Origin: Brevundimonas fontaquae
GTDB taxonomy: Bacteria; Pseudomonadota; Alphaproteobacteria; Caulobacterales; Caulobacteraceae
DNA: 64,000 nt
Direction of reading: 5' to 3'
Assembly (NCBI RefSeq): GCF_017086445.1
Contig: NZ_CP070968.1
Location: 1,054,001-1,118,000, forward strand
Below are positions 23,407 to 39,288 of the stretch, one piece after another. The notes beneath the pieces are model-generated. The model was not told the DNA's origin, made no database searches, and saw only the letters and a program-made list of their open reading frames with translations. Position 1 is the first letter of the stretch. Each line of letters starts with the position of its first letter. The position numbers and the translations under genes were made by a program.

Positions 23407-23511
23407 TCATTGCGGCGGTTCAAAGCTCCGCTCTGGGGTACCCAGCTCCGCAACTGTCTCCTCGCCGGAGTTGATGTAGTCATCGAACGTCTTGTCGAGT
23501 TCCGGCTTCAC
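23407..23511 (-). CDS. Possible small protein coupled to gajB
   Basis: A 34-residue frame starts at a GTG that overlaps the helicase stop codon (GTGA, 23508-23511), the usual sign of translational coupling, with GAAGAGG just upstream. It reads VKPELDKTFDDYINSGEETV and is acidic. No known family; it may be real or a chance frame. Confidence 0.3.
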   Translation of the reverse strand: MKPELDKTFDDYINSGEETVAELGTPERSFEPPQ

Positions 23512-25313
23512 GCCTCTTCGTCCGGAATGGGGTCGTAGGCGAACGGGTAAGCGGCCAGCACGTCGGTGGGGTTGTAGGGGTCGCCGCGCCAATTCACCCG
23601 CCCAGTCTCGGAGATGAGATGAAGGTTTTTGCGCGCCCTTGAGCAAATGACGTAGAGCAGCTTATTGGCGCTATCGACATGCGCATCGTTGGAGTTCGGC
23701 ACCATGCCCTGCAGCAGGGCGAAGGAGATCACGGCGTCGAACTCCGCGCCCTTCACTTGATGGATGGTAGAGATGGTGATGCCCGACCGGCTGGCGAACA
23801 CCCGGCGGAACATGGCGATGTCGGTGATGCCTTGGAGACCGCCGCGCTCAAGGCTCTCGATCCGCTTTTGCGAGTCCCCAACAAACATCTCCCGGTGCTC
23901 GGCAAGGTTGGGGTAGTCGGCCAGTTCAAGACCAAGCTGGAAGAACAGCTCATCGAAAAACAGGTCGAGGTAAGTGAGGCCATCATCCTCACCGATCTCG
24001 ATGGAGTTGCAGGTGCGCAACAGGCTCTTGCGCGAGATGTTTTTCACGCTGACGCCGGCATGCTCCATCTCGGCGATCACTTCCCCTGCCCAGCGCAAAC
24101 GGCGGACATACAACTGGGGGGACGGCTCAGTCAGCGCGAGACGCGCGAGCTTGTAGAAGAAGTTGTCGATATTTCGAGCGAACGGGGCGATCCCCGGCCC
24201 GTCGAAGCTGTATTCGGGCAGGGCTGCAACAAGTCGGCGGGTGACGACCGCGAGAGGTATCCACTGCGGGCCGACTATGCAGATTTCGCGGGGGGCGATC
24301 CCGGCGGTTTCTATGTTGTAGCGCAGCAGCCCAATCAGGGCGTCTTCAAGGTCACGAGCCTCGGTCACGTGATCATAGGTAATCTTGCTGGGAAACAGCC
24401 GATCCTTCCCCTCGGCGCTGATTGCAGCCGGCATCACATGGTAGTTGCTGAAATAGCCAACGATGCGCTCGGACGACCGGTAGTTTACCGACAGGCTCTT
24501 GGCTGTGAACGGCGCGCCGCAATCCGCCGCAAACTGCGCCTGGGCGATGGCGTAACCTCCAAGCGAGCCGAAAATGGCTTGGTTCGCGTCGCCGACGACG
24601 AAGGCGTTGGTCCGGCCAACCCCGGCCCTCATGATGTGGGCGACGATGTCGTACTGGATTTCTTTGGTGTCTTGGTACTCGTCGATGAGGACGAAGCGGA
24701 ACATCTGGCTAAGCAGGATGGCGATCGACGGCACGGTCGAGATGAGCTCGTGCGCAAAGCGCAGGATCATCTCGAAGTCGATCTGCCGGTTCGCGTGCAG
24801 GTCCTCCCAGTACCAGCCAAGCACCTCCATGACGGCGGGCTGAAAGCCGGCATCGATGCCGCGCAGTTCGGGGCCCCGGCTCGTGTAGTTGTAGGCACAA
24901 TGAAAGGGGCTGACGCGGTGTTGTGACGCTTGGCAATGCTCGGCCAGACGGCGCTCGGTCTCGTGCGCGTCAATCACTCTGAACCCATGCTGTAGAGCCG
25001 GGTGGTAGATGCCGTAAGGGCGAAGAATCCAGTCGAGACAGAAGCTGTGAATGGTCCCGATCCAAAGCTGGTCGGTATCGACACCGAGCGCCTCGATGCG
25101 GTCGTAGATCTCGTCCGCTGCGCGGTGGGTGTAGGTGATAGCGACGACGTGCTACTTGTTAGTCGTCAGGCGGGAGAGTTCGAGGGCGGCCTTGTACGTC
25201 AGAGCGCGTGTTTTCCCGCTACCGGGACAGGCTGTCAGAAAGACATTGCCCGGCGTTGTGATCGCGTCGACCTGTTCAGCGTTCAGGTCATCCTCTGGCC
25301 AGGCGAACGTCAT
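23508..25313 (-). pseudogene. GajB-like UvrD/PcrA-type helicase with in-frame amber stop
   Basis: The full frame from the ATG at 25313 would encode 601 residues. Walker A lies early (ACPGSGKTRALTYKAAL), but codon 54 is TAG (25152-25154). The same frame then continues with helicase sequence: VVAITYTHRAADEIYDRI, GTIHSFCLDWIL, a Walker B FVLIDEYQDTKEIQ, VVGDANQAIFGSLGGY and a C-terminal motif VICSRARKNLHLI. One base change from AAG or CAG would restore it. A GTG at 24977 opens a 489-residue frame, but that product lacks the ATP-binding loop. It overlaps gajA by four bases (25310-25313). Gabija GajB is a UvrD-like helicase encoded beside GajA. Confidence 0.85.
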
Positions 25314-27445
25314 GTGGCGTGGTTCAACACCCTGCCAATCTGATCGGCGGGGAAAGCCGCGTTCATTTCACCAAGCAGAGCGGGAAGGTCGAGCTCGCCG
25401 TCGCTGTAGCGCCCGACATGATCGCGCATGACGGCCACCGCCTGCGGGTCAACCAAGTCGGATTTCTGGAGAAGGTCGAGGCGGTAGCGCATGATGCTGG
25501 CGACGATGGCCGGCGTGGGGCGGTGCGCGGTGAACAGGGCCTCGGCGACATAGTCCGGCAGGGCCGTGTTGGCGTCGATTTTCTTGGCAACCTGAATAGC
25601 GAACCAGCCCTTGCCCGCATACTTTGCCACGGCCAGAACCCGGCGCCCGTAATGCGTGAGGTTGCCGGACTGCAAATCTTCGGTGGCAGCCGCGATGGTC
25701 CCCGGATCGCTGTAGACATCGGGCAGAGCGGCGACTACGGGCCGGTGATTGCCCGCCGCGATGAAATCGACCTCAAAGGTGTGAGGGGCGTAGTGGACAG
25801 TGACCCAAGGATTGCCGGCCGCGAAGCCGTCGAGCCTGATCTTCCTGCCTTGACCCGCTTCATGCGAGCGGCGCGCCTTGTCCTTCGCCTTCTTCGTTGG
25901 CTCGTCGTCAAGCGGGTTGGCGACCGTATCGATGAAGGCGGCGTCTAGATCGGTGATGATGGCGCAGCGCTTCTTCAGGCGCTCTTCGTGGAAGACCACC
26001 GCGACGTTCTCAAAGCCGGTGCTGCCGATGTTGATGAGGCTGATGCCCAGCTCGTCGAGGCTCACCCCCAGCACCTCCTTCACGAGAGCGGGCAGCAGTA
26101 TTTCCTCGGCGTCGCCTTCGACCATCACGACGCTCTTGGCGAAGAGCAGGTTGCTGCGGACGGCATCCATATAGCGTTGCAAGCCGCGCACCTCATCCGG
26201 CGGCAAATTCGCGGCTGGCTGATAGGCCTCACAGCGGCCTTCCATGCGGCCGAGCACGTTGACGTTCTCGACGTTGCTCACTTCGGAGATATGCGAGGAG
26301 TGAGTCGAGTAAATGACCTGGGTGTCCGGATACTTCAGCCGGTCGAACAGCGTCTTCTGGATGTGGGTGTGGATATGCGCCTCCGGCTCCTCGATGACGA
26401 GGAAGTTGGCGCAGACCTGCTTCTCCTTTTGGTAGCGGAAGTGCAGGAGCTTGAGCGTCAGATAGATGAGATTGGCACCACCCAAGCTTAGCTCGTGGAT
26501 CGCCCCCTCATGGCCATCGTGATTCTCCCCGACGAAAAGCCGCAGCGACTGAAACAGCTTCTCTGCGTCGTTGGGGACGCCTGAACGAACCCAGAGGTCG
26601 GCGGGGGAGTAAGTCTCCCCCGCCGCGTCCCGGATCGTCTGGCGAATATCGCCCCGGATCGTGCCCACATCATCGAGGCGTTCAATGGCCGTGTTCAGAT
26701 CACCGACCATCGCCGTAATCGGCTCGAGAGCGGCCTGATCAATCTGGCCGCTCTTGCTGCGCAGAAGGGTCAGCAGCGGGTTCGTGCGGTTGTTCTGAAA
26801 ATCGGTAACGACGTCCCGCAGGGCCTGTATGAAGGTGAAAGACACCTCTTTCTCAATGGAGAGGATTTTGGGTGCCCGTGCGCCGATTTCCGGCGGCTCC
26901 ATCTCGGTTGGAAACCGCACCGCCTCGAAGTCGCCAACAATCGCCCGGTACTGTTCGGGATCGGTCAGATCGGCCGTGCTCTTGCCGGTGAACATCGCGT
27001 CGTAGTCGTCCAGCGTGATGGTGCGGCGGAGCTGGGCGAGGCCTTCATGGTCGCCTTCGTCGAGCTGCGACAGACGCAGCCGAATGGCCGTGTTGGGCCG
27101 GAAAATGAGGCTGTAAGTCGCACGCCCTACCTCCTCTTCCTCGACGTTGCCGGTGCCGTGCAGGAAGAGCGCCTGGACGGCCTCGTCCTGAGACACCTCC
27201 TCGAACTCCAGCCCAATGACGATCCAATGGCCGCGCCACTCTCCCAAGCCACGGTGGAAGTCGCTTTGATCGAGGCGGCGCGCCATGCGCAGCATGTCGT
27301 CGTCCAGCAGCAGCCGCATGGCGCGAAACAGGTTCGTTTTGCCCGTTCCGTTCTCTCCGATGACTGTGTTGATGCCCTTCTTGAAGTGGACGTTTGCTGC
27401 CGCGAAGTTGCGGTAGTTGACGAGCCTAAGGCTAGAAATGTGCAT
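25310..27445 (-). CDS. GajA-like OLD-family endonuclease (ATPase + TOPRIM)
   Basis: 711 residues. The N-terminal ABC-type ATPase has a Walker A GENGTGKT (30-37), a signature motif LSLGGANLIYL and Walker B FLVIEEPEAHIHTH followed by YSTHSSHISEV. The TOPRIM domain follows with SVVMVEGDAEEILLPAL and the metal-binding ITDLDAAF. This is a class 2 OLD nuclease, the class encoded next to UvrD-like helicases; the Gabija nuclease GajA belongs here, though it is usually shorter (near 580 residues). It may still nick DNA without its helicase, but the anti-phage system needs both. Same operon as the broken helicase gene. Confidence 0.88.
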   Translation of the reverse strand: MHISSLRLVNYRNFAAANVHFKKGINTVIGENGTGKTNLFRAMRLLLDDDMLRMARRLDQSDFHRGLGEWRGHWIVIGLEFEEVSQDEAVQALFLHGTGNVEEEEVGRATYSLIFRPNTAIRLRLSQLDEGDHEGLAQLRRTITLDDYDAMFTGKSTADLTDPEQYRAIVGDFEAVRFPTEMEPPEIGARAPKILSIEKEVSFTFIQALRDVVTDFQNNRTNPLLTLLRSKSGQIDQAALEPITAMVGDLNTAIERLDDVGTIRGDIRQTIRDAAGETYSPADLWVRSGVPNDAEKLFQSLRLFVGENHDGHEGAIHELSLGGANLIYLTLKLLHFRYQKEKQVCANFLVIEEPEAHIHTHIQKTLFDRLKYPDTQVIYSTHSSHISEVSNVENVNVLGRMEGRCEAYQPAANLPPDEVRGLQRYMDAVRSNLLFAKSVVMVEGDAEEILLPALVKEVLGVSLDELGISLINIGSTGFENVAVVFHEERLKKRCAIITDLDAAFIDTVANPLDDEPTKKAKDKARRSHEAGQGRKIRLDGFAAGNPWVTVHYAPHTFEVDFIAAGNHRPVVAALPDVYSDPGTIAAATEDLQSGNLTHYGRRVLAVAKYAGKGWFAIQVAKKIDANTALPDYVAEALFTAHRPTPAIVASIMRYRLDLLQKSDLVDPQAVAVMRDHVGRYSDGELDLPALLGEMNAAFPADQIGRVLNHAT

Positions 27446-27910
27446 GCTGCCCCAACGCCCGGTCTGTCAAAGTCAACGCCAGCATAGGTCACATTTCGCT
27501 GTTGAGCAGATCAAAGTTGAGGCCAAGGCCGGCGCGGCGTGCGTGGGGCGGTCACGCTGGGGCGGCTAAGTGTTGCGCCGCGCCCGAGCATCACCAACGG
27601 GGGCGCAAGCGGGCACATGTGGTAGGACGGCCGGGGGTCACCTTCTCGGCAGCGTTCCGGCTTCCGCTACTGGCGCATCAGCGACATGACGTTTGCGGAA
27701 GCAGCGGCGACCCTCTTAGTCCAAGCGGACGTTGGAATGTGCGCCGGGCGTTGAGAACATGTGAGAGTCGCATGCGCCCGCGCCTTTAGCCGAAGCCTGG
27801 ACATACGCGTGGGCCGCACCGGGCTGGCGCAGCTTAGGCGACGGACCTTTCATGGCGAACTGGAATTTGGCGCCGTCTCCTGCAGCGCGGAGCCTTTGGT
27901 GTAACTGGCC
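27446..27910. other. Intergenic region with dispersed repeat copy 2
   Basis: 465 bases between gajA and the HipA-like gene. Apart from the repeat at 27743-27809, no gene is supported; a small open frame at 27502-27789 is arginine-rich and lacks a ribosome site. GC-rich, possibly decayed mobile DNA. Confidence 0.45.
27743..27809. repeat. Dispersed repeat, copy 2
   Basis: Runs from CGCCGGGCGTTGAG to CCTGGACATACGCG and resembles 16368-16449 in the same orientation, with about a dozen bases missing from the middle. Beyond the shared end the two sequences still have weak likeness for some 30 bases. It marks both sides of the stretch containing the IS elements and Gabija-like genes. Confidence 0.45.
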
Positions 27911-29743
27911 CTAAACAAAAGGCTCCGCGCGCTGGCGGACGATTTCGGAGATCCGGTCTCGGATACGATCGGCGCCGGGGGCGATCCGTTCCGGCACCGG
28001 CAGGGCTTGCAGCCCCTCCACGGTGCGCCGGGCGCAGTCGGCAGTCAGTTGCGCGGCTCGAGCGACCGGGAGGTCGATGGTGCGGGCGAGCGCCTCGAAA
28101 TCGTCGGGTGTCAGCCGGTCTCGTTTGCCGTTGAGGGTCAGAGCCATCTGATCGTTGTCCAGGCCGGGGAATATCCGCGTGGTGACGGCGTCATAGACCG
28201 GGGCGAAGCGCACCTCGTCGAAGCGGTCGCTGCCGGCGTCGGCGACCTTCAGCAGGGCCAGGTTCTTCAGGTGCATGTCTCCGTCGGCAATGAGCCAGGC
28301 GAAAACCGCCCGCCGGTACAGGATCTCCAGATCCTGCGCCGGGTGTGTCGACAGGGGGCGCAGTCCACGCGCCATGCGTTCGATGGAGCCGTCGTACTTG
28401 CGCAGGGGCGGCAGTTCGAGGATCGAGCAGAAATCCTCCAGCGCGTATCGGCGTGCGTCGTTGTCGGTGCGGCGGATGTCGAAACGCTCGACGACAAGGG
28501 CCGGGCGCATGCCGTCCGGCATGGGAACAAGGGCGGCGTCGGGCGTTTCGAAACCGGCGGCGCGAGCGAGCGCCAACCCCATCCATTCGACGATCGGCAG
28601 GTCTTCGAAGCCGTTGGTGCCCGCCGGCTTCAGGATATGAGTGAAGGGCGCCCCCGTCGCCGGGATGAGCTCGCCGCCCGTCGTCAGGCACATAGGCGCC
28701 TTGATCTGGATACCGGAGAGACGCGGCGTGTCGCGGGAGGCAAACAGCTTGGCTAGATTGGCCTGGAAGCTCTCTTCGAGGGATCGACGTGTCGGACCCT
28801 CGTAACGGCCGGTGAGGACCCCGTCGTCGATATGCTGCGCCAGACGGCCCTGAAGGACGTCCGGGGTCACTTCAGCCAGCTCGGCCAGGTCGGCGACGAT
28901 GGCGATGTTCGACATGTAGCGCCGGCCTGTGCGCAAGGCTTCACGCTCGTCCCGCGCGTCCAGAACCTCGGCAAGCCAACCCTCCGGCAATAGGGATTCG
29001 ATGAAGGGGGGGAGGCTTCCGGGACGGGTCGGGCGCACCAGGGGGGGCTGGCCCTCGGCGGTGGCTGCCCAGCGCCACTCCACGCCGTCATGGGTCAGTT
29101 CGCCGACGGGCGCGCCATGCCAGGCGACCGTCAGACCCACCCGGGCCGCATTCGCCGGGGCCTGGGCGGGATGGGCCGCGTCGAGGAAGAGCTCGGCGGC
29201 CTCGGCCTCTCGAATCCACCGGATCAGTCGCCCGAGCACCCACACGGCGTCGGCGGCCCGGCGCGCGTCGCCGTATTCTTCTATCAGACGCTCCGCCATC
29301 CGGCGGCGCATGAGGGGGTCGATCGCGCCGGCATGCTCGCTTCGGATGCGGAAGGCCTCCAGAAAACGCTGGCGAGGCGATGACGCGGTCATATGGATTT
29401 CGCCCATCGTGTCAGCAACGATGGCGGGCACGGTGGAGGGCGCGTCCGGCCCCTGGTTCTGAATGATCTCTAGGCCCCGGATGCGGGTCCGCTGGTTGCG
29501 ACGCCCGCTTAGAAATAGCCGGCCGTCCGCCGTGGGCGCCAGCAGGAGAGCCGAGGCGCCGGACAGATAGGCGCGCGGATAGAGATAGGCGGCGATCCGC
29601 ACGGCGTGCGCCATGACCACGGCGTCGATGTCGTCGGCCGCGTCCACATAAACGCCGCGGACCAGGGCCACGAGATCACCTGCTTGGGCGGCCGCGTGGG
29701 CACGGGCCCGATCAATCGTCTCACCCACCAGATGTAGAGCCAT
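27911..29743 (-). CDS. AbiEi-like winged-helix / HipA-family kinase fusion
   Basis: 610 residues from the ATG at 29743; a GTG at 29761 would add six residues but lies inside a palindrome. Residues 1 to about 190 resemble the AbiEi antitoxin/regulator fold (LVALVRGVYVD, AYLYPRAYLSGASALLL). The rest is a complete HipA kinase: QIKAPMCL and FTHILKPAG, the catalytic block ADGDMHLKNLALL (Asp489, Asn494) and the metal aspartate in FAPVYDAVTT (Asp518). HipA kinases phosphorylate aminoacyl-tRNA synthetases and are normally held by a separate XRE antitoxin, HipB. No hipB precedes it; instead it diverges from an XRE-GTPase gene. The built-in winged helix may do the regulating (inference). Confidence 0.8.
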   Translation of the reverse strand: MALHLVGETIDRARAHAAAQAGDLVALVRGVYVDAADDIDAVVMAHAVRIAAYLYPRAYLSGASALLLAPTADGRLFLSGRRNQRTRIRGLEIIQNQGPDAPSTVPAIVADTMGEIHMTASSPRQRFLEAFRIRSEHAGAIDPLMRRRMAERLIEEYGDARRAADAVWVLGRLIRWIREAEAAELFLDAAHPAQAPANAARVGLTVAWHGAPVGELTHDGVEWRWAATAEGQPPLVRPTRPGSLPPFIESLLPEGWLAEVLDARDEREALRTGRRYMSNIAIVADLAELAEVTPDVLQGRLAQHIDDGVLTGRYEGPTRRSLEESFQANLAKLFASRDTPRLSGIQIKAPMCLTTGGELIPATGAPFTHILKPAGTNGFEDLPIVEWMGLALARAAGFETPDAALVPMPDGMRPALVVERFDIRRTDNDARRYALEDFCSILELPPLRKYDGSIERMARGLRPLSTHPAQDLEILYRRAVFAWLIADGDMHLKNLALLKVADAGSDRFDEVRFAPVYDAVTTRIFPGLDNDQMALTLNGKRDRLTPDDFEALARTIDLPVARAAQLTADCARRTVEGLQALPVPERIAPGADRIRDRISEIVRQRAEPFV

Positions 29744-29792
29744 AACTTTCCCGCACTTCACATACGAGAAAGTTAGGCGCTCAGGACCTAAC
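29744..29792. promoter_or_regulatory. Two overlapping palindromes in the HipA / XRE-GTPase divergent region
   Basis: AACTTTC-N17-GAAAGTT (29744-29774) sits directly before the ATG of the HipA-like gene, and GTTAGG-N9-CCTAAC (29772-29792) overlaps its outer arm. Both are perfect inverted repeats. They lie in the 174-base gap between the divergent genes and are good candidates for operators bound by the AbiEi-like domain or by the XRE domain, which would tie the two genes into one autoregulated unit. Confidence 0.5.
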
Positions 29793-29917
29793 TGTCAGCG
29801 CATAATGCAAGAGAAGGTCGATAAATGAAGGAGGTAGCGAAACGTTTCAGCTTGAACGGATAATAGTTTGCGAAATTTCGGCATCTATGGCATTGATATT
29901 CGAGAAAGGTGTGTGCG

Positions 29918-32008
29918 ATGACCTATCCTGTATCCGGTGAAGCCCTCCGCTATGTCCGCGATCAAGCGCGCATGAGTCAAACCCAGCTGGCCAAGGCGAT
30001 GGGCACGGTCGCCAGCGTCCTGTCCAAGCTGGAAAAGCTCGACGAGGTCGAAGCCGAACTCGCGCAACGCTATTTGAACGCAGTCGACACGCACCTCGCC
30101 CGGGAAGCCCTGGATCACTACGGTCGAAACTGGCGTCGCAGCACGCCGCCGTCCTTCCTTCATCCCGACCGCGAGGCGCTCTGGCTCTTCGACATCGCGG
30201 CCCGGGACCTGGACGTCTTCGAGGCCGAACGGAAGGATCCCATCCTGCGCGGCCACATCGACCTGCTCCGCGAAGACCTCCGCGCTGCGGAAACCTACCT
30301 GGATCGGCGCGACCACACGGTCGCATGGATCGGCGACATCGGCGTCGGCAAGACCACCGCCCTGTCGCACGCCGTGGGCCTGCTGGTCGGAGACGGTCGG
30401 AGCGGGCGTCGCCCGGCCTTCCCGGTCGGGCCAGGCCGCACCACCGTCTGTGAGACGGCCATCCGCGTCGGCCCCTATGGCGTCCTCGTCGATCCCATGG
30501 AGGAGGAGCAGGTGGTTCGTCTCGCGCGCGATCTGGTGGCCAGCCTCGCGCCGGATGCTTCAGGGATCGCCGTACCCGCGGAATTGGCGCGGTTGATCCG
30601 CGCCATGGCCGACATGAAGGTCACGAGCCGTGTGGACGGGGACGAGGTCGTCACCATCGATCCGATCGCCGATCTGCTTGCTTCGGGGGTAGGCATCGCC
30701 GAGGTCGCGGATCGCGTCGTGGCAGGAATGAACCTGTCCGACCGGACGGAGCGTCAACTCATCCAGGCGGAGGGCAGCGAAGACGGCCTCACATGGATTT
30801 CCCGCTTGGTCTCGGCGATCAATAGCGGGACCGATCCTCGCTTCAGTGTTCCGACCCGCATCACCGTTCTCATGCCCTCGGACCGCCTCAAGGCCGACGG
30901 ACAGATCCTCTCCGTCATCGACACGCGCGGCGTCGAGGGCGTCACCCAACGCAAGGACATCAGCCAGCACGCCGAGGAGATCCGGACGCTGATGGTTCTG
31001 TGCACCAAGTTCGCCGATGCGCCCAACGCCACGGTGCAACGACATCTTCAGGATTCCTACGACGCCGGAACGGGGGCTGCGGATCGCCACCGGCAGTGCA
31101 TTCTGGTTCTGCCGCGTGGCGATGAGGCACTCGAGACCCCCGGCCCGGACGGGCCGGTCTCCAGCCGACTACAGGGCTATGCCGTCCGACGCGCGGAGGT
31201 GAGGCAGGCGCTTGTCGGCGCCGGACTGCCGCCGACGCCCACCTATTTCTTCGACGCCCGCAATGACGATCCCGATCAGATCTGGTCGGACCTGCGCGCC
31301 CAGATCCAGCGCATGCGGAATGACTATGCCGCTCGGGGGCGGGCCGCCGCTGCGGGCGTCCGCAATCTGATCGAAAACGTGGATGACGTCCGCGCTTCCG
31401 AAGCCCGTCTGGACATAGAGGTCGAGCTGGCCCGCCTGCTCGGCGAGGTCGGACCGCTTATGCAGTCGGTGCGCCCGCCGCACCAGAACCTCATCGAGCA
31501 ACTGGCGGTGGGCCACCACAGCTCGATCGCCGCCTCGATCTACCGCCGGGGCGACTGGGAGAATTTCGCATTCGACCACATTCTCGGCATGGGGGTCCGG
31601 ATCGACGCCAACCTGCGCACCCAGCGCGATACCCACAGGCTCGAGTTCCGGTTCAAGGATCTCGAAACCAAATATCACGACCTCGAAAGCGTGTTGGTGA
31701 CGATCCAGTCACTGAGGATCCGTCTGTCCGAAGGGCGTCAGGAGTTTCTCTCAGCCGCCCGGCTGATCGGCGCGGACGCCTATGGGCGTCTGCTGGCCGG
31801 CGCCGATCTCTGGCCGGAAGCCGCCAAGCGCTACGGAATGGGATCTGGATACAAGCGCGATGTGGCTGAGCTCTGGCGTGCGTGGTTCGAAACCACGCCG
31901 GAAGCCCAGGACGTTCGAGTCGCCGTGGACGCCCGCCTGCAGGATGCGTGGTCGACCTGGGTGATCGAGCCCCTGCGGCAGGCCGTGAGGGCGGCGCCGA
32001 CCCCGTAG
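29918..32008 (+). CDS. XRE helix-turn-helix / P-loop GTPase-like fusion protein
   Basis: 696 residues from the ATG at 29918, with GAGAAAGG 8 bases upstream. Residues 5-60 form an XRE helix-turn-helix (SGEALRYVRDQARMSQTQLAKAMGTVASVLSKLE). A P-loop follows at 139-147 (GDIGVGKTT), with GRTTVCE as a possible switch I and DTRGVEG (335-341) as a DxxG switch II, giving a dynamin- or GTPase-like order. The C-terminal third is helical, with LEFRFKDLETKYHDLESVL likely a coiled coil. No G4 NKxD motif is obvious. I know no named family with this pairing. It is divergent from the HipA fusion; the XRE domain would be in the role of HipB. Confidence 0.75.
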   Translation: MTYPVSGEALRYVRDQARMSQTQLAKAMGTVASVLSKLEKLDEVEAELAQRYLNAVDTHLAREALDHYGRNWRRSTPPSFLHPDREALWLFDIAARDLDVFEAERKDPILRGHIDLLREDLRAAETYLDRRDHTVAWIGDIGVGKTTALSHAVGLLVGDGRSGRRPAFPVGPGRTTVCETAIRVGPYGVLVDPMEEEQVVRLARDLVASLAPDASGIAVPAELARLIRAMADMKVTSRVDGDEVVTIDPIADLLASGVGIAEVADRVVAGMNLSDRTERQLIQAEGSEDGLTWISRLVSAINSGTDPRFSVPTRITVLMPSDRLKADGQILSVIDTRGVEGVTQRKDISQHAEEIRTLMVLCTKFADAPNATVQRHLQDSYDAGTGAADRHRQCILVLPRGDEALETPGPDGPVSSRLQGYAVRRAEVRQALVGAGLPPTPTYFFDARNDDPDQIWSDLRAQIQRMRNDYAARGRAAAAGVRNLIENVDDVRASEARLDIEVELARLLGEVGPLMQSVRPPHQNLIEQLAVGHHSSIAASIYRRGDWENFAFDHILGMGVRIDANLRTQRDTHRLEFRFKDLETKYHDLESVLVTIQSLRIRLSEGRQEFLSAARLIGADAYGRLLAGADLWPEAAKRYGMGSGYKRDVAELWRAWFETTPEAQDVRVAVDARLQDAWSTWVIEPLRQAVRAAPTP

Positions 32009-32126
32009 AAAGACACGATATAGGGGCAGCTCAGGGAGCCATGGGACGCTGGCCCTTGTGCGGACGCGACGCCGCTGGAAGCGGCCTGATCTCGAAGTCG
32101 AAATCGACTGCCGGTCCGCATCGATC

Positions 32127-32492
32127 TCAAAAATCGAAGCCGAGCTGACCCTCGGCGAGGGTTGATCGCGGTCGCCGCGCAGGTCGGTGTTGGTGGTGGG
32201 GCGACGGCATCGCCGCAGAGGGCGCCGATTCAGGGGCCGCCGTCTCAATAACGCGGACTTCCGAAAGACGCGGCTTGGCCGCAGCCCGCCGGGTCGGGAT
32301 CGGGGCGCCCCGGCTCTCGTTCCAGGCGGCGATGTCCCGTTCTCGCCAGGCCACCCGGCCGGGTGAAATCGGCACCGGGTCGGGGAAATCCCCGGCCTGA
32401 CGCATGCGCCACGCCGTCGTGCGGCCGAGACCCGTGAGGTTGCGCACCTGACGCCAGCTGAGAAACCGGTCCAGCCCTCGCTCATGGGCCAT
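32127..32492 (-). CDS. AlpA-type helix-turn-helix regulator
   Basis: About 121 residues from the ATG at 32492; the longer frame to 32630 overlaps the next gene. The AlpA/excisionase-like winged helix is LSWRQVRNLTGLGRTTAWRMRQAGDFPDPVPISPGRVAWRERDIAAWNESR. Such proteins regulate integrative elements or act as directionality factors. It is the most downstream gene of the conjugation-region operon reading leftwards, and no integrase follows it: the next gene is convergent. Confidence 0.8.
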   Translation of the reverse strand: MAHERGLDRFLSWRQVRNLTGLGRTTAWRMRQAGDFPDPVPISPGRVAWRERDIAAWNESRGAPIPTRRAAAKPRLSEVRVIETAAPESAPSAAMPSPHHQHRPARRPRSTLAEGQLGFDF

Positions 32493-32667
32493 GACGCTGC
32501 TCCAGAAGCGAGACCGCACGATCGCCCATGACCGTAGCGAGGGCCGCCGCGTCGTTCGCCGCATCGAGCGGGTCGCGACTCCACCAGACCAGAAGGACGG
32601 CCTTGAGCGGGTAACTGACTGAGGGATCATTCAGCAGGGTCTCCAGGCTGGGGCGTTCGGAGATCAT
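32482..32667 (-). CDS. Small protein of unknown function (61 aa)
   Basis: 61 residues, MISERPSLETLLNDPSVSYP at the start, no signal or membrane segment. It overlaps both neighbours (four bases upstream, eleven bases downstream with alpA), the tight packing seen in integrative-element operons. No known domain. Confidence 0.6.
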   Translation of the reverse strand: MISERPSLETLLNDPSVSYPLKAVLLVWWSRDPLDAANDAAALATVMGDRAVSLLEQRHGP

Positions 32668-32969
32668 GATGCGGCCTCGCGGCGGGCCTCGCGCCGTAGG
32701 CGCTGGCGCTCACTGGAAGAGGCGACCGGCGTGGTGATCTGGGACTGAGCCCAGAGATCGAGCAGGTCGAGAGGGTAGAAAGGCTTGTTCCGGATGTGCC
32801 GGCAAGGCGGCCCGCCCGAGCCGGTGGAATAGGCCCGGGCCAGGGTCGTGGGCTTCATACGGATGCCTTTGCCCTTGAGAAAGGCCGAGGCCTCCGCTCG
32901 GGTCAGCAGGGTCTCCGCTGTCGCGGGCGCTTGATCGTCGCCATGGCGGGGTTCTGTCACGAGTGTCAT
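32664..32969 (-). CDS. Helix-turn-helix-like small protein of a conjugative element
   Basis: About 101 residues from the ATG at 32969. The central part (LLTRAEASAFLKGKGIRMKPTTLARAYSTGSGGPPCRHI...FYPLDLLDLWAQSQ) resembles a helix_turn_helix_17/AlpA-like fold with a long wing. It overlaps its neighbours by four bases on both sides. Confidence 0.6.
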   Translation of the reverse strand: MTLVTEPRHGDDQAPATAETLLTRAEASAFLKGKGIRMKPTTLARAYSTGSGGPPCRHIRNKPFYPLDLLDLWAQSQITTPVASSSERQRLRREARREAAS

Positions 32970-33577
32970 AGCGCGGCCTCCGCCGGACTGCATTCCCGCG
33001 ACGACCGGACCCCGCGACCGGCCGTCAGCGCCAGGTAGCAGTTGATCACGGTCACGACGTAGTTCTGGGTCTCGGTGATGTTCGGAATCCGGCCCAGCCG
33101 GGCGACCCGATCGGGACCGGAATTATAGGCCGCGAGGGCCAGGCGCAGATCGCCGAAGCGGAGGATCTGGCGGGCGAGGTAGTCGGCGCCGCCCCGCAGG
33201 TTCTCGTAGGGGTCGAACCGGTTCCGAACGCCAAGGTCGGCGGCGGTGCCCGGCATCAGCTGGGTCAGGCCGCAGGCGCCCGCGTGGGAGCAGGCCTGGG
33301 GCCGATAGGCGCTTTCAACCACGACCAGGGCGTGGAGCAGCTTGCGGTCCAGGCCATGTCGGTCAGCCGCTTCAGCGATGGCCTCGGCGAAGGGTTGGTC
33401 CAGATCCGCGAGACGGACGGCTTCCACACCGGCGACGTGGGACGTCGTGGCGTCCACGGCGGCGCCGACGAACAGGTCCCCGCCGGCGAGGCGCCAGTCG
33501 ATGCGTGTCTGGGCGGCGGCCGGCGACGTCGCCGCGAGCACGACGAGGGCGGCGATGGGAAGGCTGTATCTCACCAT
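32966..33577 (-). CDS. Lytic transglycosylase (VirB1/TrbN-like)
   Basis: About 203 residues from the ATG at 33577; signal peptide at 1-22. The SLT domain is clear: DRKLLHALVVVESAYRPQACSHAGACGLTQLMPGTAADLGV with catalytic Glu in VVVES, then YLARQILRFGDLRLALAAYNSGP. It opens peptidoglycan for the type IV secretion channel. Overlaps the signal-peptidase gene by seven bases, inside the trb operon. Confidence 0.9.
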   Translation of the reverse strand: MVRYSLPIAALVVLAATSPAAAQTRIDWRLAGGDLFVGAAVDATTSHVAGVEAVRLADLDQPFAEAIAEAADRHGLDRKLLHALVVVESAYRPQACSHAGACGLTQLMPGTAADLGVRNRFDPYENLRGGADYLARQILRFGDLRLALAAYNSGPDRVARLGRIPNITETQNYVVTVINCYLALTAGRGVRSSRECSPAEAAL

Positions 33578-34074
33578 GTCAGGGTCTCCCGGTAGACGCC
33601 CTCGATCTGGGCGGTCGTGACCGGCCCGAAGTACCGGCTGTCCAGGCTGGACGGCGTGTCGCCGAGCAGCAGGCGTTCGTTCGCGGCGAGCCTGCGGCAG
33701 CCCCGCCAGGCCGGGAGAGGCGCGCCGTTGCGGTCCCTGTCGTGGATCCGGACGGTGCGCATCGGGGCGATCATCCAACGGCCGTCCGAGCAGACGGAAT
33801 CGCCCCCCGTCGCCGCCACCCGTTTGATCAGGCGCACCTCGGGCGGCATGCCCTGACGCGCCAGATAGGGACGCACGACGGCTGGCTGGCGAATGGCGAC
33901 GACCGCGCCCCGCGAGATTTCGGCGGCTGCCGTGCGGACATAGACGCCCTTAGGCAGGCTCGGGCTTTCATTGATGAGCGCGAGGGCGGGCCGTTGTCCC
34001 GCGATCGCGCCGAACGCCAGGAGGCCGACGGCGGGCGCCACGGCGGCCGTGAGAAGACGACGGAAACGGGTCAT
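33571..34074 (-). CDS. traF: TraF-like S26 family signal peptidase (conjugal transfer)
   Basis: 167 residues with an N-terminal membrane helix (about 8-26). The S26 serine is in INESPSLPKGVYV, and a lysine follows in RLIKRVAATGGDSV, the Ser-Lys pair of the family; LLLGDTPSSLDSRYFGPV is the C-terminal conserved box. TraF of RP4-type systems processes the TrbC pilin, and a trbC gene is present further up. Overlaps trbI by four bases. Confidence 0.88.
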   Translation of the reverse strand: MTRFRRLLTAAVAPAVGLLAFGAIAGQRPALALINESPSLPKGVYVRTAAAEISRGAVVAIRQPAVVRPYLARQGMPPEVRLIKRVAATGGDSVCSDGRWMIAPMRTVRIHDRDRNGAPLPAWRGCRRLAANERLLLGDTPSSLDSRYFGPVTTAQIEGVYRETLTW

Positions 34075-35252
34075 CGGCGATAGGGCTCCAGAATGAGATC
34101 ACGGGTGATCATCACCCGGACCGGTGCGCCTGCCCGGACGCGGATGGACGGCTGGACCCCGAGCTCGCGGTCGATGAGCCGTCCCCCGACCTGGGAGGCC
34201 TCAATGGACGCGGCGCTCCCCGCACTGGCGGCGAACGACCGATCGTCTGATCCGCCCCGCGCCAGCTCGCCGAGGGTGGTGACGGCGCCGGCGAAGAGGG
34301 TCGCGACGCCGAGCGGCCAGAGACGCCGGTCCACCTCGCCGCGGACCCCGACGGCCCCTTGCGCATCGACGCCGGGCTCCTCCGAGAGGATCAGGCTCTT
34401 GCCGTTGGGAAGGATCAGCCGGTCCCAGACCAGAAAGGCCCGACGATCGCCATGGGCGCTCTCGCCTTCGTGGCGTCCGATCAGCCGCGTCCCCTGCGGG
34501 ACGACGAGATGACGTCCGGTGATGGAATCGAACACATTCTGGCTGACCGTGGCCACGACGGGACCGGGACGGGACGTGTCGACCGCCGTGAGCAGAACGC
34601 CCGGGATGACGGCTCCGGCCTTCAGCTCGTAGGGGGATACGGGCGCCAGCAGGCCGTGTGGACTGTAGATCGCCCCATAGTCCCGCATCGCGGGCGAGGG
34701 ACTCGGGTCTGATCGGCCGGCGGTCTGGACGGTTCCGCTTCCCGGGGCGCCGTCGAAGAAAAGCCCCGAGGCGGCTGCCTGGTCCGCCGGTCGCGGCGCG
34801 CGGGGAGCCGTGCTGTAGTGGGGCGCAGGCACGCGCGCGGGCTGTGGGGATGCGACGGTCTCTCTCGCCTCGGGCACCGCGCCCCGGCGCTCCGGCAGGG
34901 TGTCAGCCTGGGCGAGGCGATCATAGCTCGCCGGCTGGTCGGTCACGCGATCCGAAGGCCGGACGCTGCCTCGCGCCTCGCCTGCGCCGTCGGCGTCCGC
35001 CGCGTCACGAGCCTGGCGCGTCATCTGCGGCTGGACCACGAAGGCCCAGGCCAGAGATCCGGACACGAGCAGGGCCGCAACCAACACCGCCCCCTGGACG
35101 ACAGGCTTGCGGATGCGAACGGCCCCGGGACGCGGCGCCCGTCCCATCAAGGGCGGCGGCGGGGCCTTGGGAGCCGTGACGGGCGGCGGGGTCGCCGGTG
35201 TGTGCGTGTCGTGTTGAGTTCCAGCGGTTTCAGCGCTGTGAGGATCGGTCAT
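34071..35252 (-). CDS. trbI: Conjugal transfer protein TrbI (VirB10-like)
   Basis: 393 residues from the ATG at 35252 (MTDPHSAETAG). A Pro-rich cytoplasmic tail, one membrane helix (about 45-65), a Pro-rich periplasmic linker, and the VirB10 domain (LKAGAVIPGVLLTAVDTSRPGPVVATVSQNV...GTRLIGRHEGES) follow. In a type IV secretion system it bridges the two membranes. Here the VirB9 partner gene trbG is missing from its usual place between trbF and trbI. Confidence 0.9.
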   Translation of the reverse strand: MTDPHSAETAGTQHDTHTPATPPPVTAPKAPPPPLMGRAPRPGAVRIRKPVVQGAVLVAALLVSGSLAWAFVVQPQMTRQARDAADADGAGEARGSVRPSDRVTDQPASYDRLAQADTLPERRGAVPEARETVASPQPARVPAPHYSTAPRAPRPADQAAASGLFFDGAPGSGTVQTAGRSDPSPSPAMRDYGAIYSPHGLLAPVSPYELKAGAVIPGVLLTAVDTSRPGPVVATVSQNVFDSITGRHLVVPQGTRLIGRHEGESAHGDRRAFLVWDRLILPNGKSLILSEEPGVDAQGAVGVRGEVDRRLWPLGVATLFAGAVTTLGELARGGSDDRSFAASAGSAASIEASQVGGRLIDRELGVQPSIRVRAGAPVRVMITRDLILEPYRR

Positions 35253-35437
35253 CGGACGGCTCCCGTTAGGCGGCGGATATGGACGATCTGCGGTCGACGA
35301 TCCGCGAGACCGATCTGCGTGGGGAGCGCGGTCGGTTCCACGCCGCCGTCGGCCCCACGAAATATCGCGCAGCCGGAAAGCGCAAAGGCGAATGTGACCG
35401 TGACAACGGTCCCGATCAGGAAGCGTCGGGGGTCCAT
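35249..35437 (-). CDS. Small lipoprotein between trbF and trbI
   Basis: 62 residues; signal peptide with lipobox (FAFALSGC), then a short mature part ending RRLTGAVR. It occupies the position where trbG would be expected and overlaps trbI by four bases and trbF by 22. It could be a VirB7/TrbH-like lipoprotein or a remnant of trbG, of which the N-terminal lipobox survived; the sequence is too short to decide. Confidence 0.55.
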   Translation of the reverse strand: MDPRRFLIGTVVTVTFAFALSGCAIFRGADGGVEPTALPTQIGLADRRPQIVHIRRLTGAVR

Positions 35438-36105
35438 GAGACATCCTCGATCTTGAGGCCAAGGGGATTGCGCATCAGTTCCGCCTCGTTGCGCGGCGGC
35501 TGATGGGCGACGGTGATGAGGGCGCGCCAACGCTCGGCCCCGGCTTGCTGACCGTTGACGAAGCGGGTCTCTCGCCACTGCAGATCGAAGGTTCGCTCGC
35601 TGCGGCGGACCACATTGAGCACCTCGACATTGACCGCTTCCCGGCCGGCGTCGGCGAACGGGTCGTTGGCCTGGGCCCAGTCGTTCAGGAAGGCGGAGGC
35701 CTTGGGGGTCAGGAGGTCGTAGGCCCCCAGCCAGTTCTGACGGATCACGATCGGATCGATCGACTTGGACCGCACGTCCCGGATCCACTGAGCGAGCGCA
35801 TAGCCGGTCTGGGCCTCGGTCGGCTCATAGCGGCCGTCCAGGGCGGTGATCTTCTGGGTCTGTCCCCAGTCGGACACCTCGACGACGAAAGGCCGGACCA
35901 CGGCGCGATCGGCCTGGGCCCACCAGCCCGCGCCGAGGAAGGCCGCCAGGGCGAGATTGGCCAGGGCGATGCGGCGCCAGTTGCGCGCGTGGGCGATGGA
36001 AAGACCCATCCGGTCGTCCCAGACCTGACCAGCCCGCTGGTAGGGCGTGGCCTCGGGGGACGCGGTCAGGGCGCGTTTGGGTTTGAAAAAGGGATGCATG
36101 CTCAA
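35416..36105 (-). CDS. trbF: Conjugal transfer protein TrbF (VirB8-like)
   Basis: 229 residues. A short cytoplasmic part (YQRAGQVWDDRMGLSIAHARNWR), one membrane helix (about 46-64) and a periplasmic VirB8 domain (VVEVSDWGQTQKITAL...WIRDVRSKSIDPIVIRQNW...FDLQWRET). Full length for the family. ATG overlaps the trbL stop (36102-36105). Confidence 0.92.
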   Translation of the reverse strand: MSMHPFFKPKRALTASPEATPYQRAGQVWDDRMGLSIAHARNWRRIALANLALAAFLGAGWWAQADRAVVRPFVVEVSDWGQTQKITALDGRYEPTEAQTGYALAQWIRDVRSKSIDPIVIRQNWLGAYDLLTPKASAFLNDWAQANDPFADAGREAVNVEVLNVVRRSERTFDLQWRETRFVNGQQAGAERWRALITVAHQPPRNEAELMRNPLGLKIEDVSWTPDAS

Positions 36106-37469
36106 TCCTCGGGTCTGACGGTGGGTTTGAGGGCGCCGCTGTTCTCTCCGGCCGGCATCAGGGCGCGGGCTGAGTTGGCGATAAAGAAGGCCTGGAGAGC
36201 AGCGGATCGGCCGGCGGCGCGACCGCTGCCTGCACCCAGCGTTCTCTCCTCCGACAGGGAAGGCCGGGCGCGGCTCTCGGCGTCAGGCGCCGACTTGCCG
36301 AGGGACGGCGCCGCGGCCGACCGACCGGGCGACTCATCAGCGGACGACGTTGACGTTGACCGCGATGGCCCCGAGCCTGCTGGCGAAGAGCCGGACGCGC
36401 GGGAGAGGGGTGGAGGCGCCGCACCACCGCTGGAGCCCGGCGCGGGGCCTGGTGAAGGTCTCGGTCCGCCGCCCGGCGGAAAGCTCCCGGACGAGGGTCC
36501 GCTTCCTGATGAGCGCGCTGCGGAGGCCGCGCCTGCGGCGGCTCTGGACGACCCGCTGACGGCGGCGGCTCGCCCGGCCATGGCTCCGGCCCCCGCCACG
36601 CCGCCCGCCACGAGGGCGCCGGCGCCGGCAACAGCCAATCCGCTCGTCAGAGCTGCGCCCGCTCCCAAGGCCGGCCCGCCGGTCACAAGGGCCGAGGCGA
36701 GGTTCGGGATGAAGATGGCCAGCATGGCCAGCAGCAGGGCGGCGACCAGAATGGTCAGGGCCTCGTAGATGTCAGGATTGGCGGAGGGCTGGAGCTGGTC
36801 GAAAATCGTCCGTGCGCCCGAAACGACGATGGCCAGCGCCAACACCTTGAGCCCGGAGGAGACGACGTAGCCGAGCGGCCTCTCAGCCAGAAAGGCGGTC
36901 TTGTTCCAGATGCCGAACGGCAGGAGCACGAAGCCGCCCAGGGTGACGATCTTGAACTCCAGCAGAGAGACGATGATCTGCAGGGCGAGTATGGCGAAGG
37001 CCAGCATGATGCCGATCATCGCCAGGCCGAGGATGAGGGCGTCGGCCATATTCCCCATGACGTCGAGCGGGTTCTCGACCGGCGCGGGTGTCTCGCCCAG
37101 CGCCTTCACGATCTCCCAGCCCTGCTGGAGGATGGCCCCCGGATTGAGAAACTCCGCGCGCGACAGGGAGCCTCCGCCGGCGGTGAGGCCGAGCTCGAGG
37201 AAGCCGGCGTAGATCGTCTCCGACAGGGCCTGCCAATCATTGATGAGCCAGGCGAAGGCGCCGATCAGCAGCACCTTGCCGAAACCGGCGGCGAGGATTT
37301 CCCGGTTGGGGGAGAGCGCCCACTGGATGCCCGTCAGCGCCACCACGAGCGCGATCAGCAGTCCGAAGACGCCGTTGACCGAGCTGGACAGGGCGTCAAA
37401 GCCGGCGGTGACGGTGTTGGAAAACACCACCATCAGCTCGTTCGGGGTCTCCATTCCGGGGCCGGCCAT
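36102..37469 (-). CDS. trbL: Conjugal transfer protein TrbL (VirB6-like)
   Basis: 455 residues from the ATG at 37469, with AGGAG seven bases upstream. Five or six membrane helices occupy about 20-265 (GVFGLLIALVVALTGIQWAL, LLIGAFAWLIN, ILGLAMIGIMLAFAIL, LVAALLLAMLAIFI), followed by a low-complexity Ala/Gly/Ser/Pro tail of about 170 residues, normal for TrbL. It forms part of the inner-membrane channel. Lies 11 bases after the trbJ remnant. Confidence 0.92.
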   Translation of the reverse strand: MAGPGMETPNELMVVFSNTVTAGFDALSSSVNGVFGLLIALVVALTGIQWALSPNREILAAGFGKVLLIGAFAWLINDWQALSETIYAGFLELGLTAGGGSLSRAEFLNPGAILQQGWEIVKALGETPAPVENPLDVMGNMADALILGLAMIGIMLAFAILALQIIVSLLEFKIVTLGGFVLLPFGIWNKTAFLAERPLGYVVSSGLKVLALAIVVSGARTIFDQLQPSANPDIYEALTILVAALLLAMLAIFIPNLASALVTGGPALGAGAALTSGLAVAGAGALVAGGVAGAGAMAGRAAAVSGSSRAAAGAASAARSSGSGPSSGSFPPGGGPRPSPGPAPGSSGGAAPPPLSRASGSSPAGSGPSRSTSTSSADESPGRSAAAPSLGKSAPDAESRARPSLSEERTLGAGSGRAAGRSAALQAFFIANSARALMPAGENSGALKPTVRPED

Positions 37470-37480
37470 GACCGCTCTCC

Positions 37481-37936
37481 TCAGTCCCGAGCGTGGGGCA
37501 AGGGGTTGAAGGACGGGGCGGCCGGGGTGGAGGATCCGCCCTCCCAAAAGCGGCGCCGCGCCTCGATCGCGGCCTCCCGGTCGGCGGCCTGACGCGCCGC
37601 GCCCTCGGCCATCAGCCGGGACTGCGCCAGAAGCAGGGTCCGCATGCTGGCCAGATCCTCCGCGAGGACGGACAACATCTGGGTCGAAGACTGGATCGCG
37701 GCCGTCTCGCCCTCCGCCGCCTCGCTGGCGGCCATAGCGCCCCGGAGACGCCCGTCCCGACTCCGGGCCAGCCGCTCCAGCTCGGCCGCCGTCCGCGCCA
37801 GATCCTCGGCGGTCCGTCGGGCGGTCGTGGAGCGCTCGGCGCCGAGCGCCGTGAGATCCGAGAGAGACAGGTCGTCTGGATACAGATCGGCGAACTGCCG
37901 CTGGACCCCGTCGAGGGTCGATGCCGTGCCCCTGAG
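37481..37936 (-). pseudogene. trbJ: trbJ remnant (3' part only)
   Basis: About 150 C-terminal residues of TrbJ remain, from LRGTASTLDGVQRQFADLYP to FNPLPHARD, mostly coiled-coil helix (RTAEDLARTAAELERLARSR). The N-terminal 90-100 residues with the signal peptide and the start codon are gone: at about 37932-37937 the frame runs directly into trbE, in a different phase. It cannot give a normal TrbJ (a VirB5-like pilus tip protein). Confidence 0.85.
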
Positions 37937-39288
37937 CCGGTCGGCCCCACGACCATGGCGTGGCCAACGTCGCCGACATGCAGGGAGAGCCGGAAAGGCG
38001 TGGACCCGCTGGTCCGCGCGACCGCCAAAGGCGGCCCTTGCAGACGCGGGTCTGCGGTCGGCCCGGCCCAGACGGCGGAGACCGGAAGAAGGTCGGCGAG
38101 GTTCAGGGTGGAGACCAGCGGCCGGCGGACGTCCGCATAGGGCTCGCCCGGCAGGGAGCCGAGCCAGGCCTCGACCGCATTCAGATCTTCGGTCCGGGCG
38201 ACGAAGCCCTGGGCGTTCAGCGTCGCCTCGATCGCCCGCGCCTGCTCCGCCGCCCGGTCGGGGTCGCGCGCCGTCACCGTGATCGTCGTGGTCAGATAGC
38301 CATAGGCGCAGGCATCCGAGCCGAGCGCCTCCAGGGCGCCGTCGCACTCGTCAGTCTTGGCGGCCGCGTCCGTGTCGAGGAGCGGAACTTCCTCCTTGGT
38401 GATCGCCTCGCGCAACAGGACGCCGACGCCCTTGCGCTTGGCGAACCACCTCTTGCGCAGCTTGACCAGCTCGACCTCGGCGTCCGCCTTGTCGAGGCCG
38501 ATCCAGCGGGCGCTCCAGCGATAGGGAAACGGCAGAGCGCCGAGGGCGTCGAGCAGCCCCGGCCGCGTGCTCGCCGGGAGACCACGCACCGAGACCACCT
38601 TGAGTGTCCGGCCGTCGAGCGTGGGCGCCACGCCGCCCAGAAGGGGTGCATCGGCCAGCCAGGCGTCGAGGAACATCGGCGTAGCGGGCAGTTCGAGGCG
38701 GACGGTTCGGGGAGAGACGCAGTCATGGAGCCAGGTCAGGATCTCCGCATCGTCCAGCATGGCGACTTCCGGAAGGGCGTCGGCCAGAAGATCGACGATC
38801 TGTGCGGTCTCGCGCGTGAAGGCGTCCAGCGCGTTGCGCCAGTCGCGGCTCGCCGGGTCGGCTCCGTCGAACAGGACCCGCTCCATCCGGCGGGTCTGAT
38901 CCGCTGGCGGCAGCCAGGTCAATGCGGCCCGGTAATCGGTCTCGTAAGCCGGCTCGCTGGTCTCGAAGAGGGTGCGGCGCTCGGCGTCGATCAGCCAGGC
39001 GGCGGCGATCTCGAACTCGCTCTTCGGATAGGCCTGGGCGGGACGACGACGCGCCTCCACATGCAGACACCACCCGCTGCCAAGACGTTTGAGGGCGTTG
39101 TTGAGCCGCGCCCGGACCGACATCAGCTCCAGATCCGAGGCCGACTCGAGGTCGGGCCCCCGGAAACTCAGGCCGCAGGTGAAGGACCCGTCCTTGTTCA
39201 GCACGACCCCCGGCGCGACCATGGCCGCCCAGGGCAGATGATCGGCGAGGAGCGCGGGTCGCCTACGATGTTCATCCAGAAAGCGCAT
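37932..39288 (-). pseudogene. trbE: trbE remnant (5' part, cut inside the Walker A motif)
   Basis: About 452 residues of the VirB4-type ATPase TrbE remain from the ATG at 39288. They end at GHAMVVGPTGSG, where a lysine (GPTGSGK) should follow; instead the sequence joins trbJ. Roughly 360 residues with the catalytic ATPase are missing. The frame stays open to 37612, adding about 107 unrelated residues. The junction bases GGCTCAGGG would fit both parent genes, suggesting recombination at a short identity. Without this ATPase the secretion system cannot work. Confidence 0.88.

Follow-up and report, generated by a model that had tools for sequence, protein, structure and literature searches.

A divergent AbiEi-like/HipA kinase gene and XRE-dynamin gene in Brevundimonas fontaquae: probably two self-contained defence-type genes rather than one toxin-antitoxin pair

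Do two divergent genes, one for an AbiEi-like/HipA kinase fusion and one for an XRE helix-turn-helix joined to a GTPase, form a single toxin-antitoxin or defence module? The question was raised by a sequence-only reading of a window of 64,000 nucleotides from Brevundimonas fontaquae (contig NZ_CP070968.1, positions 1,054,001 to 1,118,000), which had proposed a new two-gene system. The analysis pointed to a different answer: the two are probably self-contained defence-type genes, brought together divergently on one occasion in an alphaproteobacterial lineage and carried along as neighbours since then. The domain content of both proteins, the GTPase fold in a predicted model, the conserved pair, two different conserved palindromes and the retention of the kinase without the GTPase gene were observed in silico. 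Both frames were intact in the open reading frame (ORF) list, and their coordinates stood.

27911–29743, minus strand: AbiEi-like/HipA kinase fusion gene; 610 amino acids from ATG; HipA_C match, 13-member family alignment and PDB matches to HipT and HipA.
29909–32008, plus strand: XRE/dynamin-like GTPase gene; 699 amino acids from GTG, 696 from ATG at 29918.
29827–32097, no strand: segment absent from the related locus L024; whole GTPase gene and promoter region.

The same conjugative element was found without the GTPase gene in a genome of the same genus (G290, locus L024). In a blastn comparison with window 15001–45000, identity was 93% over window 32098–37949, which holds the TrbI and VirB8 genes and most of the TrbL gene, and 91% over 27723–29826. 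Only 24 other bases lie between the two matching blocks in L024. The GTPase family profile gave only short helix-turn-helix matches in the rest of the G290 genome. The L024 kinase is intact and 95% identical to the window kinase. Therefore, the pair is not obligate. Downstream of the L024 kinase, genes with DEAD helicase, BrxC/BrxD (3.2e-150) and TerB domains (L024:10276-16849, G290:C5) replace the Gabija genes that lie beyond the kinase in the window; thus, cargo turns over at this site.

The two families were mostly found apart. The kinase was present at six of 59 GTPase-family loci (58 distinct, window included, with L037 and L069 being one locus) and missing from 53; the sequences of L043 and L077 stop shortly before the gene, so a divergent neighbour could not be seen there. 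From the plasmid records, 15 of 20 with a GTPase match were used; H7, H9, H12 and H14 (apparent near-copies) and H20 (28% coverage) were left out. Kinase matches occurred in 706 plasmid records (69 at at least 80% coverage), from which seven unpaired loci and three pairs were used. A survey of 299 genomes of the order gave the GTPase in two and the kinase in 11 (the window's own and one broken fragment included), with both only in the window's own genome, which is too sparse for a linkage test. In the phylum sample, the kinase was found in three of 349 genomes, the window's own included. These 53 loci, the near-identical L024 kinase that stands without the GTPase gene, and a kinase palindrome kept at 17 of 17 unpaired kinases spoke against the proposed toxin-antitoxin or obligate two-gene module.

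A type II-like pair, with the XRE domain of the GTPase in the role of HipB, was considered very improbable. The XRE profile does resemble HigA/HipB structures, and the genes are adjacent and divergent. However, unpaired kinases persist as open frames, one of them 95% identical to the window kinase, and characterised hip modules, according to passages of PMC8262856, keep the kinase and its helix-turn-helix partner in one operon. A HipB-like role of the XRE domain was rejected as a candidate because of L024 and the other unpaired kinases. As the sequence-only reading had noted, the ORF list has no hipB-like gene adjoining the kinase, and none is among the six ORFs compared with Pfam; the small XRE gene of type II hipBA and hipBST modules was likewise missing next to the window kinase in both.

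Within one group, the pairing was not fortuitous. The six paired loci are the window and five loci with at least 61% identity to the window GTPase; the next relatives share at most 49%, and none is paired. The three best plasmid GTPase matches (61.6–64.0% identity) carry the kinase divergently, and two Mesorhizobium pairs were added by a profile scan of genome contigs. All six have the same divergent layout with a gap of 165–176 bp. In a midpoint-rooted tree of 23 kinases, the six paired kinases and that of L024 formed one group with 100/100 support. The label of paired or unpaired needs two changes on this tree, which were read as one gain and one loss. The divergences of the partners correlated, with r of 0.97 including a near-copy pair and 0.87 without it. 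It seems that the pair arose on a single occasion and has remained linked during wide transfer. In one paired locus (L015), a separate helix-turn-helix gene and another HipA-family gene also lie about 1.6 kb away from the kinase of the pair.

The same loci bear on whether the genes are chance neighbours in a defence island that hitch-hike without a functional link. Both families are mobile and mostly apart, and the paired loci L014 and L039/L040 have further island genes in common. However, the linkage persists to about 61% protein identity in the window lineage and several Hyphomicrobiales genera, and the flanks differ in several loci, which is hard to expect by chance given the cargo turnover at the site; chance neighbourhood was judged unlikely. 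A predominance of homologues apart from each other had been named as a sign against the pairing; it holds for both families overall, but not within the paired group.

The intergenic region was examined for regulatory sites. The reported gap of 174 bases was right when both genes start at ATG (29743 and 29918); it is 165 bases with GTG at 29909. For the kinase, ATG 29743 was preferred over GTG 29761, because the latter would place part of a conserved palindrome in frame. For the GTPase gene, a start at ATG 29918 rather than GTG 29909 gives a palindrome spacing closer to that of the other pairs. Alignment of the six pairs showed two conserved islands in an otherwise diverged intergenic region.

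29744–29774, minus strand: 31-bp imperfect palindrome, putative kinase operator; abuts the kinase start codon; minus strand AACTTTCTCGTATGTGAAGTGCGGGAAAGTT; inverted repeat I2.
29863–29888, plus strand: palindrome around CGAAATTTCG (29871–29880), putative XRE operator of the GTPase gene; inverted repeat I1.

The most conserved intergenic element was the 31-bp kinase palindrome, which the sequence-only reading had not mentioned. It was present at all 23 kinase genes (six paired, 17 unpaired), centred 16–24 bp before the start, and scored 15.8–48.5 bits, whereas 40 base shuffles of each gene never exceeded 8.2; for the window palindrome, the score was 26.9 bits and the best of 40 shuffles reached −2.0. 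The matrix was built from 13 unpaired kinases, with leave-one-out scoring for these seed genes. It replaced a matrix-free scan, whose threshold had let only one of the six paired genes through and had excluded several unpaired ones; in the matrix scan, the start used for the L082 kinase lay 3 bases too far downstream. Every kinase gene sampled has an operator-like site of its own. Of the 17 unpaired kinases, 16 have a second copy 53–67 bp upstream of the first, against none of the six paired ones, and the sole unpaired kinase without it is that of L024, a member of the paired group. No ORF family was common to three or more of the 17 unpaired kinase loci within 2.5 kb, judged by the 12 largest groups, except among the close relatives L030–L032.

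The sequence-only reading had reported two perfect palindromes in the gap. Both are present (GAAACGTTTC at 29839–29848 and CGAAATTTCG at 29871–29880), but only the second lies in the block conserved among the six pairs. The GAAACGTTTC palindrome was not seen in the other five pairs and was treated as chance. Each of the six pairs has a TTGCGAA block (TTGCGAAATTTCGC-like) about 50 bp upstream of the GTPase start codon, when the window start is taken as 29918. Scoring covered the region upstream of 48 GTPase genes, and the start was assigned manually for several of them. The CATATATG core occurred upstream of 17 of 30 distant XRE-dynamin genes (shuffle mean 0.08, maximum 1), in several as ATGCTGCATATATGCAGCAT or near it, and a TTGCRA box occurred in 5 of 12 intermediate GTPase genes. 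A good part of the GTPase family carries its own sites, distinct from the kinase palindrome. One shared operator for both genes was rejected, since the kinase palindrome also occurs at unpaired kinases and the GTPase block differs from it in sequence.

The domains of the kinase protein were as follows.

28019–28720, minus strand: HipA kinase core, residues 342–575, with ADGDMHLKN and APVYD motifs.
28949–29131, minus strand: HipA N-subdomain-1-like stretch (Couple_hipA), residues 205–265; E 0.0037, below the curated cut-off.
29174–29743, minus strand: N-terminal AbiEi-like region, residues 1–190; similarity over about residues 8–68 only.

The kinase motifs were intact, as had been claimed. Pfam HipA_C matched the window kinase at E 9.8e-42 and was found in all 13 family members, and the catalytic motifs DMHLKN and APxYD aligned with those of Legionella HipT and E. 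coli HipA. With E 0.1 as the limit, the Couple_hipA stretch was detected in 10 of the 13 members. In one paired kinase (Sinorhizobium americanum, L016:4992-6827), the only such case among the 13, the catalytic aspartate position has a conservative change in an open frame, and this kinase is possibly weakened. The proposed AbiEi-like N-terminal block was borne out weakly by PADLOC: its AbiEi models matched 10 of 10 kinase N-termini, with a best E per protein of 6.5e-5 to 0.013. Profile comparison by hhalign with two AbiEi sets gave E 0.004–0.005 at a probability of only 7–8% over the same stretch, against E 0.49 and 0.82 for two control profiles. The AbiEi label of the N-terminus is likely, not proven, by these sequence comparisons.

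According to its predicted model, the protein encoded next to the kinase combines an XRE domain with a bacterial dynamin-like GTPase.

29936–30124, plus strand: XRE helix-turn-helix, residues 10–72; HTH_3; five helices in the model; HigA/HipB-type structures by profile.
30305–31333, plus strand: dynamin-type GTPase domain, about residues 133–475; P-loop GDIGVGKTT at 142, DTRGVEG at 338.

The fusion of an XRE domain and a P-loop protein had been recognised in the sequence-only reading; it is now identified as dynamin-like. HTH_3 matched the window protein at E 6e-4, below the Pfam cut-off, and 33 of 39 relatives match HTH_3. The AlphaFold2 model had a predicted local distance difference test score (pLDDT) of 90.7, and its top structural matches were IniA, BDLP, a Campylobacter dynamin-like protein and mitofusins. 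A dynamin-type GTPase, neck and trunk fold was present in this model, and the supposed coiled-coil tail is better read as predicted neck and trunk helices. The usual dynamin G4 motif is [N/T]KxD. The corresponding place reads LPRx[D/E]E instead (R403 and E406 each in 37 of 39 members, D405 in 20 of 39). As regards a membrane-inserting paddle, the maximum 19-residue mean hydropathy over 54 rows was 1.74, inside the GTPase domain, and no strongly hydrophobic segment was present. The Eleos LeoBC model matched one of 39 XRE-dynamin members (E 4.7e-4). The GTPase protein gave no match among phage records.

A mechanism for two self-contained genes can be proposed. The kinase gene would be a one-gene toxin-antitoxin-like unit. 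Its AbiEi-like N-terminus would bind the 31-bp palindrome, which overlaps a putative −10 box in promoter boxes read by eye, and would repress its own transcription. The same part may restrain the HipA-type kinase in cis, as proposed in passages of PMC8262856 for the helix-turn-helix of HipH/YjjJ. If this control were lost, the kinase might phosphorylate a translation factor and cause growth arrest. Likewise, the XRE domain of the dynamin would bind its own, different palindrome and repress its own promoter, and the GTPase core could sense or remodel membrane in stress or infection. Either gene may have a role in phage defence. The sequence-only reading had left kinase control to the AbiEi-like domain, the neighbour's XRE domain or both; of these, control by the kinase's own N-terminus accords better with the data than control by the XRE of the GTPase.

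Several observations weigh against this interpretation. The AbiEi similarity is weak and confined to about residues 4–68, and Pfam gave no AbiEi family match in the first 200 residues of ten kinases. In L089, one of the ten N-termini, another, unrelated PADLOC model (residues 90–165) outscored AbiEi, and the AlphaFold2 model of the kinase, made from four sequences only, had a pLDDT of 47.2. On the GTPase side, 13 of the 30 distant XRE-dynamin genes lack the CATATATG core, and the TTGCRA box is absent in 7 of the 12 intermediate genes. Co-descent at 61–76% identity with correlated divergence suggests some selection for linkage, and kinase regulation may have been altered by the pairing, as hinted by the loss of the distal palindrome from all six pairs.

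Some of these points bear on a functional two-gene defence cassette, in which the XRE-dynamin would sense infection and tune the kinase through DNA or protein contact. Such a cassette would fit the six loci with one layout and gap length, the single kinase-tree group with matched partner divergence and different flanks in several loci, and the second palindrome kept only by kinases outside the paired group. However, the kinase of L024 is intact with the GTPase gene absent, the kinase is missing from 53 of the 59 GTPase-family loci, and the two palindromes are non-overlapping sites with different sequences. The cassette was regarded as a tentative and rather doubtful alternative.

Both genes were compared with known systems. 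HipH/YjjJ are monocistronic helix-turn-helix–HipA kinases in clade X of the Hip tree, with an extension of about 100 residues proposed as a cis-acting antitoxin (PMC8262856, in part). The window kinase resembles them as a HipA kinase without hipB and with an N-terminal extension of DNA-binding type, but its extension is about 200 residues long and AbiEi-like. It scored 22.5 bits against the NCBIfam YjjJ model NF007297 (cut-off 401), with the alignment confined to the kinase core. AbiEi-type regulators bind to inverted repeats within the promoters of their own genes; passages of PMC7319586 describe two 23-bp inverted repeats in the AbiEi promoter and two inverted-repeat pairs within −1 to −131 of the Rv2827c promoter. 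The kinase genes are like type IV AbiE and Rv2827c in their weakly AbiEi-like N-terminus and in having inverted repeats before their own start codon in 23 of 23 cases, with two repeat sets in most unpaired genes. They differ in that the AbiEi-like part, similar over its short stretch only, is fused to a HipA kinase. No AbiEii nucleotidyltransferase partner was found, nor a common partner gene in the 17 unpaired loci (12 largest groups).

The XRE-dynamin resembles IniA, BDLP, the Campylobacter dynamin-like protein pair and SynDLP in its predicted GTPase, neck and trunk fold, its P-loop and its DTxG motifs. It differs from bacterial dynamin-like proteins in its N-terminal XRE domain, promoter palindromes, LPRx[D/E]E motif and lack of a strongly hydrophobic segment. 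The B. subtilis dynamin DynA delays phage lysis, according to part of PMC8844932. Neither the AbiEi-HipA nor the XRE-dynamin fusion appeared in titles or abstract starts of the open-licence literature, among the matches listed. AbiEi is not mentioned in the main text of the Hip kinase phylogeny (PMC8262856), and PMC9948734 gave no passages for four terms on helix-turn-helix and N-terminus. The kinase was filed as a variant of self-contained HipA kinases and its neighbour as a variant bacterial dynamin; the two were not classed together as a new toxin-antitoxin pair. The locus is probably a case of two self-contained genes resembling one such pair. The kinase seemingly has its own AbiEi-type regulator, which would bring two toxin-antitoxin types into one protein with a very well conserved operator-like site.

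Of the region described as full of defence genes, the adjacent Gabija pair was checked. It lies beyond the kinase (window 23508–27445; GajA model 1.8e-298, GajB 1.1e-172), and the genes on the GTPase side are conjugation genes. The window gajB frame starts about 111 model positions late, and an in-frame stop near 25152–25154 lies between this frame and a Walker-A-bearing start. Therefore, the window Gabija may be inactive.

Gabija-like genes were also found beside other XRE-dynamins. A gajA-like gene lies directly downstream in L053, L055, L067 and L070, and gajAB lies upstream in L063. PADLOC confirmed GajA at 1.6e-216 or lower in L053, L063, L067 and L070, and GajB in L053 and L063; for L055 and the remaining gajB genes, the assignment depends on clustering with the PADLOC-confirmed ones. 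A more distant GajA/GajB-like pair lies upstream in L017. Some of these XRE-dynamin and Gabija(-like) pairs are close enough for one operon. The likeness to Gabija loci is that several XRE-dynamins adjoin gajAB-like genes, although the window gajAB is on the far side of the kinase and most sampled family members have other neighbours. Downstream of XRE-dynamins, a DUF262-type gene was found in three loci (GmrSD_N confirmed in L020), a DUF3800 gene in one and an AAA_21 ATPase gene in one. Other loci have unrelated neighbours, e.g., sigma-70 and aldo-keto reductase.

The analysis draws attention to dynamin-like proteins that have a DNA-binding domain, some of which lie among defence effectors. 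It is a speculative and unlikely extension that XRE-dynamins are portable immunity switches, in which the GTPase or membrane state would set the hold of XRE on its operator and couple membrane attack to an interchangeable effector: Gabija, a GmrSD-like nuclease, a DUF3800 protein or, in one group, the autoregulated AbiEi-HipA kinase. XRE-less fusions to OLD/AriA-type ATPases would be the single-chain version. If GTPase state does control DNA binding, membrane stress would be linked directly to the expression of immune genes.

In 3 of the 349 phylum-sampled genomes, an XRE-less dynamin part is joined to a C-terminal OLD/AriA/HEC-01A-type ATPase, in proteins of about 1000 residues (L114:145-3156, L115:1405-4428 and L116:310-3246). 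These neighbours and fusions suggest that XRE-dynamins share work with OLD-type ATPase defence, or may only reflect defence islands. A cyanobacterial dynamin-family gene (L038:6914-9625) abuts a gene with a weak HSDR_N-like nuclease match.

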